DNA from: Armatimonadota bacterium
GTDB taxonomy: Bacteria > Sysuimicrobiota > Sysuimicrobiia > Sysuimicrobiales > Humicultoraceae
Reading direction: 5' to 3'
DNA length: 64,000 nucleotides
Assembly: GCA_031081715.1 (NCBI GenBank)
Contig: JAVHMA010000002.1
Span: 1-64,000, forward strand
The translations under genes and the position numbers were made by a program. Of the stretch, positions 57,292 through 62,252 are shown piece after piece. Numbering within the stretch: position 1 is the first letter of the stretch; every line of letters starts with the position of its first letter. The notes below the pieces were generated by a model. It was not told where the DNA came from. It was given only the letters and a program-made list of their open reading frames with translations, and did not search any database.

Positions 57292-58614
57292 CTACCTCCC
57301 AGGGAAGAGTCGGCCCATCCGGCCGCGGTCGTCGAACTGCCGCATGAGCCGGCGGACCTGGTCGAACTGCTTGAGGAGCCGGTTGACGTCCTGCACGGTG
57401 GTCCCGCTCCCCGCGGCGATGCGCCGCCGACGGCTGCCATCGATAAGTTGCGGCTGCGCGCGCTCCTGCGGGGTCATCGACTGGATCATCGCCTCGATCC
57501 GCCGCAGCTGCGACTCGTCCACGGTCAGGCCGGGCAGCTTCGCGCGCGAGAACCCCGGAATCATCTCGAGGAGCTGGTCGATCGGGCCCATCTGCCGCAC
57601 CTGCCGGAGCTGGTCGAGGAAGTCGGCGAAGGTGAACTGGGCGCGCCGCAGCTTGCGCTCGAGCTCCGCGGCCTGCTCGGCCGACAGCGTCTGCTCGGCG
57701 CGCTCGATCAGCGTGAGCACGTCGCCCATGCCCAGGATACGCGAGGCCATCCGGTCGGGGTGGAACGTCTCGAGCGCCTCGGGCCGCTCGCCGGTCCCCA
57801 CGAACAGGATCGGCAGCCCGGTCGCCGCCACGGCCGAGAGCGCGGCGCCGCCGCGGGCGTCGCCGTCCAGCTTGGTGAGGATGAGCCCGTCCAGGCGCAG
57901 CCGGGCCGCGAACTGCTCGGCCATCCGCACCGCGTCCTGGCCGGCCATCGCGTCGAGCACGAGCAGCGTTTCCTGCGGCCGCAGGGCCTCGTGCATCGCC
58001 GCGAGCTCGGCCATCAGCGCGTCGTCGGCGTGCTGTCGCCCGGCCGAGTCCACCACCACCACGTCGTGGCCGTCGGCGACCGCCTGCGCCACCGCCCGGC
58101 GCGCCACCGCCACCGGGTCGGTCGCGCCCTCGGGGGCGAACACCGGCACGCGGACCGCCGCGCCCACCACCTGGAGCTGCCGGACCGCGGCCGGCCGCCG
58201 CAGGTCGGTCGCGACCAGCAGTGGTGCGCGGCCCCGCCGTCGCAGCAACGCGGCGAGCTTACCCGCGGTGGTGGTCTTGCCCACCCCGTGGAGCCCGACG
58301 AGCAGCACGACGGTCGGCGGCTGCGGCGCGAACCGCAGCTCGCGCGTCGCGCCGCCGAGCAGCGACGTGAGCTCCCGGTGGACGATCTTGACCACTTGCT
58401 GGCCGGGACTGAGGTGCTTCCAGACTTCCTGCCCGACCGCGGCCTGCCGCACGCGCTCGACGAACTCGCGCGCGACCTTGAAGTTCACGTCGGCCTCCAG
58501 CAGCGCGAGGCGCACCTCGCGGAGCGCCGCGTCCACGTCCTCGGGGCTCAGCGCGCCGCGGCCGGTGAGTCGCTTGACGATCTCGCCCAGCCGCGCCTGG
58601 AGCCCCTCAAACAC
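57292..58614 (-). CDS. ffh: Signal recognition particle protein Ffh (SRP54)
   Basis: GTPase that, with 4.5S RNA, targets membrane proteins to FtsY. The 440 residues start MFEGLQARLGEIVKRLTGRG and have the N domain, GLHGVGKTTTAGKLA (G1), the insertion box, DSAGRQHADD, TKLDGDARGGAA, and the Met-rich M-domain (MGPIDQLLEMIPGF, SMTPQERAQP). The GTG at 58614, with GGGGAAGG 8 nt before it, overlaps the upstream stop; an ATG at 58650 would add twelve residues. Confidence 0.97.
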   Translation of the reverse strand: MFEGLQARLGEIVKRLTGRGALSPEDVDAALREVRLALLEADVNFKVAREFVERVRQAAVGQEVWKHLSPGQQVVKIVHRELTSLLGGATRELRFAPQPPTVVLLVGLHGVGKTTTAGKLAALLRRRGRAPLLVATDLRRPAAVRQLQVVGAAVRVPVFAPEGATDPVAVARRAVAQAVADGHDVVVVDSAGRQHADDALMAELAAMHEALRPQETLLVLDAMAGQDAVRMAEQFAARLRLDGLILTKLDGDARGGAALSAVAATGLPILFVGTGERPEALETFHPDRMASRILGMGDVLTLIERAEQTLSAEQAAELERKLRRAQFTFADFLDQLRQVRQMGPIDQLLEMIPGFSRAKLPGLTVDESQLRRIEAMIQSMTPQERAQPQLIDGSRRRRIAAGSGTTVQDVNRLLKQFDQVRRLMRQFDDRGRMGRLFPGR

Positions 58615-59467
58615 CGTCGTCGCCTTCCCCGCGCCGCGCCTCGTAGACACGGTAGCCGCCGGCGGCCGCCGCCTGCCGCGCGTCGCCGAAGCGCACCGCG
58701 ATGAGCCGCGCCAGTGTCTTCGCGCCCTGCGCGGTGCGCGCCACCAGGTAGAACCGTCCGCCCGGGCGCAGCACCCGCCAGGCGTCCTCGATGAACGCGC
58801 GGACGACCGCGCGGCCCGCGCGGATCGGCGGATTGGTGACGACCAGGTCCATCGTGGCGTCTGCCAGCGGCGCGGCGGCGTCGGCCACGAGTACGCGGAC
58901 GTTGGTCAGGCGCGCCGCGGCCGCGTTGTCCGCGGCGAGCGCCGCGGCCCGGCGGTTCGCGTCCACCAGCCATGCCTCGCCGCGCGGCGCCAGCGCCGCG
59001 GCGACCAGGCCGGCCGGCCCGTACCCGCACCCCAGGTCGAGCACCCGGTCCGCGCGGCCGACGCGCATCGTCTCGATCAGCAGGCGGGTGCCCGGGTCGA
59101 GCCCCCGCCGCGCGAAGACCCCGCGGTCGGTGCGGAAGGTCCACCTGCGGCCGCGAACGGTCGTGGTGAACGCCGACGGCCGGGGCCGCGAGCGCGGGGT
59201 GCTCGCAAAGTAGTGCTCCCCATCCGGGGCGCCGCGCACGAGGCCCATGGCGTGCTCGTAGCGCTCCAACGCGGCCAGCGCCCGGCGCAGGCCGTCGTGC
59301 ACCGCCTGGCGGGAGATACGCATCTGCGCCCCGATCTCGCCCAGCGACAGGTCGTCCTGGTAGTACCGGCGGAGCAGCCGCTGCTGCTGCGCGGTCAAGA
59401 GCGCGCCATAGGCGTCGAAGAGCCGGTTGGCGCGGTCGCGGGAGGCGAGGGTACGGCCCGTCGGCAT
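58607..59467 (-). CDS. YlxM HTH-RsmC-like methyltransferase fusion
   Basis: 286 residues in one uninterrupted frame from an ATG at 59467. Residues about 1-80 are YlxM (UPF0122): RANRLFDAYGALLTAQQQRLLRRYYQDDLSLGEIGAQMRISRQAVHDGLRRALAALERYE, an HTH protein coded next to ffh in firmicutes. Residues about 90-280 form an RsmC/YbiN-type class I SAM methyltransferase: ADRVLDLGCGYGPAGLVAAAL (motif I), TNVRVLVADAAAPLAD and the NPPIR motif (DLVVTNPPIRAGRAV), a catalytic signature of N2-guanine or adenine MTases. Its target is probably rRNA. The usual short YlxM is thus fused with a methyltransferase. Confidence 0.88.
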   Translation of the reverse strand: MPTGRTLASRDRANRLFDAYGALLTAQQQRLLRRYYQDDLSLGEIGAQMRISRQAVHDGLRRALAALERYEHAMGLVRGAPDGEHYFASTPRSRPRPSAFTTTVRGRRWTFRTDRGVFARRGLDPGTRLLIETMRVGRADRVLDLGCGYGPAGLVAAALAPRGEAWLVDANRRAAALAADNAAAARLTNVRVLVADAAAPLADATMDLVVTNPPIRAGRAVVRAFIEDAWRVLRPGGRFYLVARTAQGAKTLARLIAVRFGDARQAAAAGGYRVYEARRGEGDDGV

Positions 59468-59469
59468 GG

Positions 59470-59491
59470 TGTCAAGGATTCTCCCTTGACA
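59470..59491 (-). promoter_or_regulatory. Inverted repeat at the transcription start of the ylxM fusion
   Basis: TGTCAAGG-N6-CCTTGACA, a perfect 8-bp inverted repeat with a 6-nt spacer (59470-59491), spans the predicted start site and ends 2 nt before the ATG. The AGGGAG ribosome site lies in the stem and loop, so an RNA hairpin would hide it. DNA operator and RNA attenuator are both possible readings. Confidence 0.5.
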
Positions 59492-59520
59492 AGGGTACTC
59501 GCTAACAGGCACAGCGTCAA
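59492..59520 (-). promoter_or_regulatory. Promoter of the ylxM fusion-ffh-rpsP-trmD unit
   Basis: TTGACG (59520-59515) and TACCCT (59497-59492) are separated by 17 bp on the minus strand; the -35 is good and the -10 poor. The start site is expected about 59485, inside the inverted repeat. The gap 59521-59624 before the restriction gene is ordinary GC-rich sequence with a CCCCT-CAG-AGGGG stem at about 59531-59543. Confidence 0.6.
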
Positions 59521-59624
59521 GGCCGTGCGGCCCCTCAGAGGGGCGTGCCGGCCACGTGAAGGACGCCGTGCCGCCGGCCACGTAGAGGTTGTGTGCTCGG
59601 CGTTGCTGATCCCATGTCGTACGG

Positions 59625-60209
59625 ATGCGTGACAGGGGAATGCCCTTGCCCCCGGACCTGAAGCCCATTCACGTTCGAAAGGCTGTCGCCTACATCCAGC
59701 GAGAGGCGCGGGAATTCATCGATCTCTACATCGAGCAACCGAATGTGTTCAGTGCCATCATCGGCATCCTCGGGACAAAGGCGCTGGATGCGGTGAGCCC
59801 CTACGAGAAGAACCCGCACAAGCACTTGGCGGCGAGCCGGTTCCCAGACCTGCGCCGGCGCGGGGCAAGGATGCCGCTTCGCCCGATGGATAGTCTTGAA
59901 TCAAAGGGTAGCAAGCGACCATACGCCGTCGACTCACACTATGACCACGAGGGCTGGTATATCATCTGGCGCTATCTGGTGGACCCGACCACATCCATGG
60001 GAACGCCAGTCGTGATCTGGAGGGTCGATTGCGCGTACCTCCGGAAGGCGGACTGGCGATATCAGGGCAGCACCGCGGGCACGTCGGGTGGCGGAAGAAC
60101 ACACACCTTCAACCTCAGAGACCCGAAGCGCGTCTTGGGGGCACCCGCGTATGTCCATCCCCAGGTGCGATTGAGCAGCGGCAAGCCTGTCATCACAGAG
60201 GGGGAGTAG
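59625..60209 (+). CDS. Candidate type II restriction endonuclease (PD-(D/E)xK)
   Basis: 194 residues, no family recognised. A nuclease-like core is visible: PD at residues 74-75 in SRFPDLRRRG and E92-S-K94 in DSLESKGSKR, spaced as in PD-(D/E)xK enzymes (PvuII-like size). A later part is rich in aromatic beta strands (HEGWYIIWRYLVDP, VVIWRVDCAYLRKADWRYQG). It converges with an adjacent DNA methyltransferase gene (6 nt between the two stops), the classical R-M pair. GC content is visibly lower than neighbours. ATG 59625 is used; an ATG at 59640 is an alternative. Function is inferred from motif and context. Confidence 0.6.
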   Translation: MRDRGMPLPPDLKPIHVRKAVAYIQREAREFIDLYIEQPNVFSAIIGILGTKALDAVSPYEKNPHKHLAASRFPDLRRRGARMPLRPMDSLESKGSKRPYAVDSHYDHEGWYIIWRYLVDPTTSMGTPVVIWRVDCAYLRKADWRYQGSTAGTSGGGRTHTFNLRDPKRVLGAPAYVHPQVRLSSGKPVITEGE

Positions 60210-60215
60210 ACACCC

Positions 60216-61184
60216 CTACGACCTGCTGTTGCCGCCGTTGTACGACTCAAAGGACTCCCAGTTGACATCAAGCACGGCCAGCTTCGGAACAGCGCGCTCA
60301 GCCATCACAAAGAAGTCGCGTTGCTTCTCGATGCCAATGGCCTTGTAGCCAACGGCCACCGCTGCAGACACCGTCGATCCGCTGCCCATGAACGGATCCA
60401 GGACAACGCCCTCGCCCAGCGGAAGCGCGGCCCATGCAATCTGCCGCATGAAGCGCTGCGGCTTCAGCGATGGGTGCGGTGCAATCGCCTCCTCGTTGGC
60501 CGGTGGTGTCTCACTCTTCAACACATCGGGGAACGGACGACCGTCAGGTGTCCTGCGGAGACCTCCGGTCTTCCACCTGCGGAGGTTGTCGGCCACAGTC
60601 CGCTCTCGAAGCGGCTTGCGAAACACACCCCAGGGTTCATAGCAGCTTCGCGCCATGACGCTGACACCGCCGTACTCCCGCTCCGCCAGCTTGGGTCGGT
60701 CTCCACCGCGCAGCGTGCGAACGAGCCGGATGATCTCTCCACGGCGCTCGAAACCGACCGCCATCAAGGCTGACGCCACAAGCGGCGAGAGAAGAGGGTT
60801 CCCCGCAATGATCAGGTGCGCCCCCGGGACGAGGATGCGGAGTGCCTCTCGACCCCACCGCTCGAAGAACGTGACGAGCGAGTCAACCTCATGCTGCCTG
60901 AGGACCGTGAACCTTGGGAGCGGCTTGCGCTGCACCCCATCGAGCTCAGGCGGGATTCTCCAGACCCCCCCTTTGCCCGCTTGAAGCTTCGTCAGCTGGT
61001 CATCACTATACTCCACGAGGCCGAACGGGGGATCGGTGACGATCGCCTCGACTGTCGCCTCCTCTCGATTCCTCATCCACAGGAAGCAGTCCTCGTGAAC
61101 AAGGTCGTACCTAGCGCCGCTGTGATTTCCAACCGGCACCTTCGTCATGCCTTTGAGGCTGAGGCTCCGCATCGCTTCCCCCAC
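60216..61184 (-). CDS. DNA methyltransferase, beta class (N4-cytosine or N6-adenine)
   Basis: Methylates a specific DNA site, probably protecting it against the neighbouring endonuclease. Motif order identifies the beta class: DPPFG at 51-55 (motif IV), HPSLKPQRFMRQIA (about 237-250, motif X-like) and DPFMGSGSTVSAAVAVGYKAIGIE (263-286, motif I). DPPF occurs in both amino-methylating types. Of the possible starts (61184, 61172 with GGGGGAA, 61148), the longest is given. It has its own promoter and lower GC than ftsY. Codon usage differs from the surrounding core genes, suggesting horizontal acquisition. Confidence 0.9.
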   Translation of the reverse strand: MGEAMRSLSLKGMTKVPVGNHSGARYDLVHEDCFLWMRNREEATVEAIVTDPPFGLVEYSDDQLTKLQAGKGGVWRIPPELDGVQRKPLPRFTVLRQHEVDSLVTFFERWGREALRILVPGAHLIIAGNPLLSPLVASALMAVGFERRGEIIRLVRTLRGGDRPKLAEREYGGVSVMARSCYEPWGVFRKPLRERTVADNLRRWKTGGLRRTPDGRPFPDVLKSETPPANEEAIAPHPSLKPQRFMRQIAWAALPLGEGVVLDPFMGSGSTVSAAVAVGYKAIGIEKQRDFFVMAERAVPKLAVLDVNWESFESYNGGNSRS

Positions 61185-61278
61185 CCATCCTTCCGGGCAG
61201 GTTGGATTTCTGATTCCTCAACTCCTTGTGGGCATGCTGTGGAGAAGTCCAAGATATGGTGGACCGACAGTCACAACC

Positions 61279-61308
61279 AGAATAGTCGAACGTATGTTTG
61301 TACGTCAA
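61279..61308 (-). promoter_or_regulatory. Promoter of the DNA methyltransferase with internal inverted repeat
   Basis: TTGACG (61308-61303) and TATTCT (61284-61279) are spaced by 18 bp on the minus strand. The spacer contains ACGTA-N6-TACGT (61290-61305), a perfect 5-bp dyad overlapping the -35. Transcription would begin near 61272, leaving a leader of about 90 nt. The gap to ftsY (stop 61332) holds nothing else. Confidence 0.6.
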
Positions 61309-61331
61309 GGGCATTCACAGGGCGCACTGCG

Positions 61332-62252
61332 TCAACGCAATGGCGGCGCGGCGAGCAGCGCCTCCACGAACGCGTCCGGGTCGAACGGCACCAGGTCGTC
61401 GGGCCGTTCGCCCACACCCACGAAGGTGATCGGGATTCTCAGTTCGTGCGCGACCGCCACCACAATCCCGCCCTTGGCGGTCCCGTCGAGCTTGGCGAGG
61501 ACCGCGCCGGTCAGCCCCACCGCCCCGTGGAAGTGGCGCGCCTGTGCCAGCCCGTTCTGCCCGGTGCTCGCGTCGAGCACCAGCAGTCGCTCGACCGGCG
61601 CCTGGGGCAGGGCACGCGCGATAACGCGGTCGATCTTCTTGAGCTCCTCCATGAGGTTCACCTTCGTGTGCAGCCGGCCAGCGGTGTCCACGATGAGGGC
61701 GTCCGCGCGGCGGGCGGCGGCGGCCTGCGCCGCGTCGAAGACGACGGCGGCCGGGTCGGCGCCGGCCTGGTGGCGCACCACCGGCGCGCCAACCCGCTCG
61801 CCCCAGAGCTCGAGCTGCTCGATCGCCGCGGCGCGGAAGGTATCACCCGCGGCCAGCAGCACGCGGCGGCCCTCGGCGCGCAGCCGGTAAGCGAGTTTGC
61901 CGATGGTCGTGGTCTTCCCCGACCCGTTCACGCCGAGCACGAGCACGACCGCCGGCGGCGGGTCCAGGCGCAGCGTCCCGGGCGGGCCGAGCGCCTCCCG
62001 TAGCCGCGCCGCCAGCGCGGCGCGCACGGCCTCGGGGGTGCGGGCCCGCGGGTCGCGGCGCACGGCGTCCACGATCGCGGCGCTGAGCGCGGCGCCCACG
62101 TCCGCAGTGACGAGCAACTCCTCCAGCCGGTCGTAGAACGCCTCGTCGGGCGGTGCGGCGAGCAGGGCGTCCAGGCGCTCCCCGAACGTCTCGCGCGTGC
62201 GCGCGAGCGACGCGCGCAGGCGCGCGAGCCAGCCCCGGGGCTCGGTGGCCAC
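61332..62252 (-). CDS. ftsY: Signal recognition particle receptor FtsY
   Basis: GTPase receptor for the SRP complex. The 306 residues lack the acidic A domain of E. coli and start almost at the N domain, as in Thermus or firmicutes. Motifs: VLGVNGSGKTTTIGKLA (G1), AAGDTFRAAAIEQLELW, VDTAGRLHTKVNLMEEL, LAKLDGTAKGGIVV and FVGVGERPDDL. It lies one base after smc. Downstream comes the restriction-modification island rather than ylxM. Confidence 0.97.
   Translation of the reverse strand: MATEPRGWLARLRASLARTRETFGERLDALLAAPPDEAFYDRLEELLVTADVGAALSAAIVDAVRRDPRARTPEAVRAALAARLREALGPPGTLRLDPPPAVVLVLGVNGSGKTTTIGKLAYRLRAEGRRVLLAAGDTFRAAAIEQLELWGERVGAPVVRHQAGADPAAVVFDAAQAAAARRADALIVDTAGRLHTKVNLMEELKKIDRVIARALPQAPVERLLVLDASTGQNGLAQARHFHGAVGLTGAVLAKLDGTAKGGIVVAVAHELRIPITFVGVGERPDDLVPFDPDAFVEALLAAPPLR

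Follow-up and report, generated by a model that had tools for sequence, protein, structure and literature searches.

A candidate type II restriction-modification cassette between ftsY and ylxM with a putative LexA operator in its methyltransferase promoter

Type II restriction-modification (R-M) systems must keep modification ahead of restriction, a balance achieved in known cases by controller proteins, by self-repressing methyltransferases or by antisense RNAs. A cassette of only two genes, with no regulator gene, lies between ftsY and ylxM in the window (the whole 64-kb stretch of DNA analysed), raising the questions of what the cassette is, how it came there and what balances it. We consider it probable, from the sequence features described below, that the cassette is a horizontally acquired type II R-M system, composed of a PD-(D/E)XK endonuclease and a beta-class methyltransferase, and that its modification gene is placed under the SOS control of the host.

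On the minus strand, from high to low coordinates, the gene order is smc, ftsY, the cassette, a YlxM-MTS fusion gene and ffh (Table 1). The original prediction described a lower-GC cassette carrying a convergent endonuclease candidate and a beta-class methyltransferase with closely spaced stop codons; the open reading frames and domain matches bore out this arrangement, and the GC content of the 1.7 kb that separates ylxM from ftsY (0.614) was the lowest of all 1.7 kb windows across the 64 kb (mean 0.738, sd 0.026). These data support the view that the 1.7 kb cassette is a restriction-modification pair of foreign composition. No terminator-like site was found in the cassette, and no transposase or integrase was recognised among its ORFs.

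Table 1. Positions of the cassette features, the flanking genes and the second boxed methyltransferase (window coordinates unless a contig is named).
Feature	Position	Strand	Remarks
ffh	57292-58650		cassette flank
YlxM fused to MTS methyltransferase	58607-59467		cassette flank
Cassette	about 59.5-61.33 kb		two convergent ORFs (nuclease candidate on +, methyltransferase on -)
-35 hexamer TTGACG of ylxM promoter (left CGTCAAGG copy)	59515..59520	-	ancestral; same hexamer in cassette-free relatives
PD-(D/E)XK restriction endonuclease candidate	59625..60209	+	about 190 aa; ATG at 59625 or 59640
Predicted catalytic segment PD...ExK	59844..59906	+	from alignment
Gap between convergent stop codons	60210..60215		6 nt
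Beta-class DNA methyltransferase	60216..61184	-	DPPF motif IV, DPFMGSGST motif I; start codon uncertain (61136-61184)
Methyltransferase promoter	61279..61308	-	TTGACG, 18 nt, TATTCT
LexA (SOS) box CAAACATACGTTCG	61287..61300	-	in promoter spacer (-35/-10); 1 mismatch to CGAACRTAYGTTCG
-35 hexamer TTGACG of methyltransferase promoter (right CGTCAAGG copy)	61303..61308	-	
ftsY	61332-62252		cassette flank
Second boxed methyltransferase	C15:2422-3387		321 aa; N6_N4, E 2e-52; in GC dip (locus L087:2155-3458)

The minus-strand gene matched Pfam N6_N4_Mtase (E 4.3e-16) and PADLOC MTase_II PDLC03215 (E 1.7e-102). The encoded enzyme is probably of the N6-adenine type, as suggested by its DPPF motif IV. 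The gene adjoins the nuclease candidate, and this pairing recurs on plasmids, viral contigs and chromosomes.

The plus-strand ORF gave no match in Pfam, NCBIfam, PADLOC, PHROGs or PDB sequences, and none in the phage collection; naming it from sequence libraries was therefore dropped, and motif, linkage and fold evidence was used instead. Relatives of the nuclease were collected by a genome scan and from loci found via the methyltransferase in viral contigs. P70-D71 and E88-x-K90 (numbering from 59637) are among the few residues invariant across 8 relatives, and the alignment spans two branches at about 22-25% identity, in both of which PD...ExK is kept. Because these residues are the signature of PD-(D/E)XK nucleases, the ORF is assigned as a candidate of this type; its branch has no Pfam or NCBIfam model. 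In every relative read, the same methyltransferase family adjoins the nuclease. The two genes are convergent in the second copy of the cassette (contig L003, see below), in viral-contig loci and on plasmids of Citrobacter, Rhizobium, Gordonia, Iamia and Acidiphilium, and co-directional and overlapping in L004 and L005. The nuclease relatives on enterobacterial, rhizobial and actinobacterial plasmids are annotated “hypothetical”.

A fold search with the AlphaFold2 model of the window nuclease (pLDDT 77) gave only weak matches, none significant, with BglI as the best (E 0.15) and BglI, SfiI and DpnI within the first twelve. The model of the relative L068 (pLDDT 80) matched EcoRV chains in all 12 of its best hits, the best with E 0.002 and a probability of 0.97, but with a TM-score of only about 0.33; nucleases of the L068 type also match PADLOC REase_II PDLC03564 weakly. 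The motif, the linkage and the EcoRV-like model of L068 are consistent with the plus-strand ORF being the endonuclease of an R-M pair. As an avoided recognition site, GACGTC was rejected, since it occurs 44 times in the window against 48 expected. A nuclease fragment was also seen at a contig end of a family member, G003 (L002:3-107 and L006:2961-3065), beside a carA-like gene; it corresponds to about residues 82-120 and is 91% identical, and G003 gave no methyltransferase match.

The proposal that the cassette interrupts the order smc-ftsY-ylxM-ffh was confirmed by the family junctions in which both neighbours are visible, all of which are empty: in L008, L009, L010, L012 and L013, little intergenic DNA separates ftsY from ylxM. 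A YlxM-MTS match was present in 41 of the 42 relatives searched, and the methyltransferase was absent from all 42. The missing methyltransferase and the adjacent ftsY and ylxM together show that the cassette was inserted. Orthologues of host-like composition always occupying this position would have argued the opposite; the methyltransferase is instead present in one of 43 genomes, in the stretch of lowest GC.

One further contig, L003, carries the cassette at the same ftsY-ylxM site. It is filed as part of a Pirellulales genome and is probably misbinned, because it shares 93% identity with the window in Ffh and YlxM and its genome bin holds further ftsY- and ffh-like matches on other contigs. 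Between the window and L003, the nuclease had a dN/dS of 0.06 and the methyltransferase one of 0.13; neither value exceeds those of the core genes (YlxM-MTS, 0.14; Ffh, 0.15), and the synonymous divergence of the cassette was about twice that of the core genes. The low dN/dS therefore shows that both genes are under selection. In the explanation that we favor, the cassette probably entered the ftsY-ylxM junction in an ancestor shared by two or more species. The FtsY of L003 (L003:4075-4992) is about 88% identical to that of the window in its 3' third and about 60-70% elsewhere, and its gene is not followed by smc, which may reflect recombination or a chimeric contig.

The copies of CGTCAAGG at the two cassette edges, which had been proposed as a promoter duplication or an insertion trace, lie at 59515-59522 and 61303-61310 as predicted, and both form -35 elements, the left in the promoter of ylxM and the right in that of the methyltransferase gene. 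Their reading as a scar was not supported. The empty sites of the relatives have the same TTGACG hexamer directly after ftsY, so that the left -35 element is ancestral, and the right copy is not conserved, L003 reading TCTTGACA (coding strand) in its place. A target-site duplication was not accepted for these reasons. Five copies of CGTCAAGG occur in the window, where 1.8 are expected, but shuffled sequence reaches that number 6 times in 100, so the pair alone is weak evidence; since the left copy belongs to the ancestral ylxM promoter, the copies are no proof of an insertion scar. Judged from the sequence, the two -35 elements suffice to explain the pair.

The original prediction missed a LexA box inside the promoter of the methyltransferase gene. 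This promoter is the only sigma-70-like site on either strand in 59400-61420, and the box occupies its spacer, fitting the motif at 13 of 14 positions; the one that differs is an outer position. All 14 positions match in L003, though the surrounding intergenic DNA is only 60-75% identical. With at most one mismatch, CGAACRTAYGTTCG occurs at 7 places in the genome (2984 kb) against 0 for the reversed control. Apart from the cassette box, the motif precedes lexA (L057:1156-1782), imuA-imuB, dnaB, a radical-SAM gene and the gene of a second DNA methyltransferase, and it occurs near an ORF start on contig C10. The box is located between the -35 and -10 elements in five promoters: those of lexA (-35, TTGATA), imuA (TTGACT), dnaB (TTGCAA), the radical-SAM gene (TTGACT) and the cassette methyltransferase (TTGACG). 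Summed over 43 genomes, 197 motif sites were found versus 5 control sites. Among 40 box loci of relatives read with tblastn were those of LexA (7), DnaB (8), the radical-SAM protein (5) and ImuAB (1), and one more of the loci was a DNA polymerase III alpha gene. These comparisons suggest that the LexA operator of the host clade sits in the methyltransferase promoter. The LexA box of Bacillus subtilis is GAACN4GTTC (PMC4234289). Methyltransferase motifs were found at none of the 40 loci; the association of the box with methyltransferases is therefore local to this genus. Two of the SOS-box genes of the genome, dnaB and the radical-SAM gene, contain intein domains (L056:1-1722 and L058:1663-3159).

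We regard it as unlikely, though not negligibly so, that the cassette is an ordinary inserted type II R-M system with a constitutive methyltransferase, its LexA-like box being coincidental or too weak to have an effect. The window box does have a mismatch, sites with up to three mismatches are common within the 64 kb, and under-expression of the methyltransferase would be dangerous. The upstream regions of related R-M genes elsewhere in the family also lack the box, apart from a questionable match on a Mycobacterium avium plasmid (L078), where CGAACACATGTTCG lies about 390 bp upstream of the methyltransferase gene; it could be an independent LexA site, but a single match in some 15 upstream regions does not clearly exceed chance. 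Against coincidence stand the rarity of sites with at most one mismatch in 2.98 Mb, the exact placement of the box in the spacer of the only promoter-like site, its perfect form in L003 and the box at a second acquired methyltransferase.

The genome contains five N6_N4_Mtase matches, and the box lies directly upstream of two of them, whereas about 0.004 boxes would be expected in five 300-bp upstream regions by arithmetic from 7 sites in 2984 kb, random placement being assumed. The second of these genes has a one-mismatch box 58 bp upstream of its GTG and is followed by an 80-aa remnant matching the C-terminal part of Endonuc-BglII. No good box was found close to the methyltransferases at C15:12946 and C24:55880. 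On contig C15 (L162:7806-9352), a low-GC methyltransferase gene without a good LexA box overlaps the start of a 218-aa ORF in the same direction, which may encode its partner nuclease. We tentatively propose, with slightly less than even confidence, that the host SOS response acts as a sensor balancing a type II R-M system and that boxes have been recruited at least twice to acquired methyltransferases in this lineage.

For the cassette itself, we infer LexA binding, induction and feedback at the methyltransferase promoter. LexA bound to the spacer operator of the sigma-70 promoter would hold the methyltransferase at a low but sufficient level, and the SOS response would derepress its gene. 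If modification lagged, the nuclease would cut the chromosome, RecA would be activated and LexA would cleave itself; with the loss of LexA, the methyltransferase would rise and the DNA would be re-protected. The host damage response would in this way replace the controller protein or the self-repressing methyltransferase of other type II systems. Because the genes converge and no terminator was found, strong transcription of the modification gene on derepression may also extend into the nuclease gene as antisense. Unbalanced type II R-M activity has been reported to induce the SOS response (PMC3874152). Pure damage protection, in which induced modification would spare repair-synthesised DNA from cutting, is compatible with the data as an alternative, and the two readings differ only in the origin of the damage. 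A LexA operator on a modification gene, if confirmed, would be a simple alternative to the known devices and would sense the consequence of the imbalance, namely DNA breaks, and not the enzyme levels; it could explain how cassettes of this kind survive on entering a new host, and it could make chromosomal R-M systems less lethal.

SOS control of a complete system is also preferred over decay, in which nuclease activity has been or is being lost and the methyltransferase remains as a solitary, SOS-tuned epigenetic enzyme. The nuclease gene of L003 has a one-base deletion causing a frameshift near residue 26, G003 retains only its nuclease fragment, and the second boxed methyltransferase adjoins the BglII-like remnant. 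However, the window nuclease is intact, its dN/dS of 0.06 indicates strong selection until recently, and the frameshift of L003 could reflect either recent decay or an assembly error; we therefore judge decay improbable for the cassette.

The same methyltransferase family, a PD...ExK nuclease and convergent genes are shared with the PADLOC MTase_II PDLC03215/REase_II PDLC03564 group of plasmids and viral contigs. Several plasmid members (L077-L082 and L084, from Actinomycetota, Alphaproteobacteria and Gammaproteobacteria) have in common a small conserved domain, without a convincing Pfam match, upstream of or fused to the N-terminus of the methyltransferase, together with a GACGTC-NN-GACGTC promoter repeat, possibly a self-regulation module. 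In contrast, the window and L003 lack both the domain and the repeat and have the LexA box instead. It is very improbable that a regulator other than LexA, such as one borne by the cassette or the methyltransferase itself, uses the palindrome as its operator. In favor of this reading, plasmid relatives carry an operator-like repeat of their own and the small N-terminal domain, and the Acidiphilium relative has an HTH_3 gene before the nuclease gene; against it, the window cassette contains no HTH or other regulator gene, its methyltransferase lacks the domain, and the sequence of the palindrome recurs at lexA and imuAB within this genome.

Type II systems controlled by C proteins (such as Esp1396I and Kpn2I) face the same problem of timing modification against restriction; they have a controller gene, whereas host LexA is the proposed regulator of the window cassette. 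Restriction alleviation of the type I system EcoKI is similar in that damage leads to less self-restriction. It is due to ClpXP proteolysis of HsdR, and its plasmid-triggered form is independent of SOS induction (PMC11109961); our proposal, in contrast, concerns transcription of the modification gene. Integron integrases are SOS-controlled mobile genes (PMC3108266) and SymE is a LexA-repressed toxin (PMC3874152), so that a mobile or accessory gene is likewise placed under a LexA operator, but here that gene encodes the protecting enzyme of an R-M pair. In the review PMC3874152, LexA comes up only in connection with toxin-antitoxin systems, and no description of a LexA-controlled R-M gene was found in the literature searched, most subscription journals lying outside its scope. 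The locus looks like a known type of system, a type II R-M, in a new regulatory arrangement.

The left flank of the cassette has features of its own. In the window, the YlxM DNA-binding domain and the MTS (RsmC-like) methyltransferase domain are encoded in one gene (58607-59467), and in some relatives the two halves are in different frames or separated. Between the -10 element and the start codon of ylxM lies a palindrome, TGTCAAGG-N6-CCTTGACA (59470-59491), which is also found in L003 and L008-L013, sometimes with one changed base, and in weaker form in L025. It resembles an operator for the ylxM-ffh unit, and YlxM itself may be the protein that binds it.
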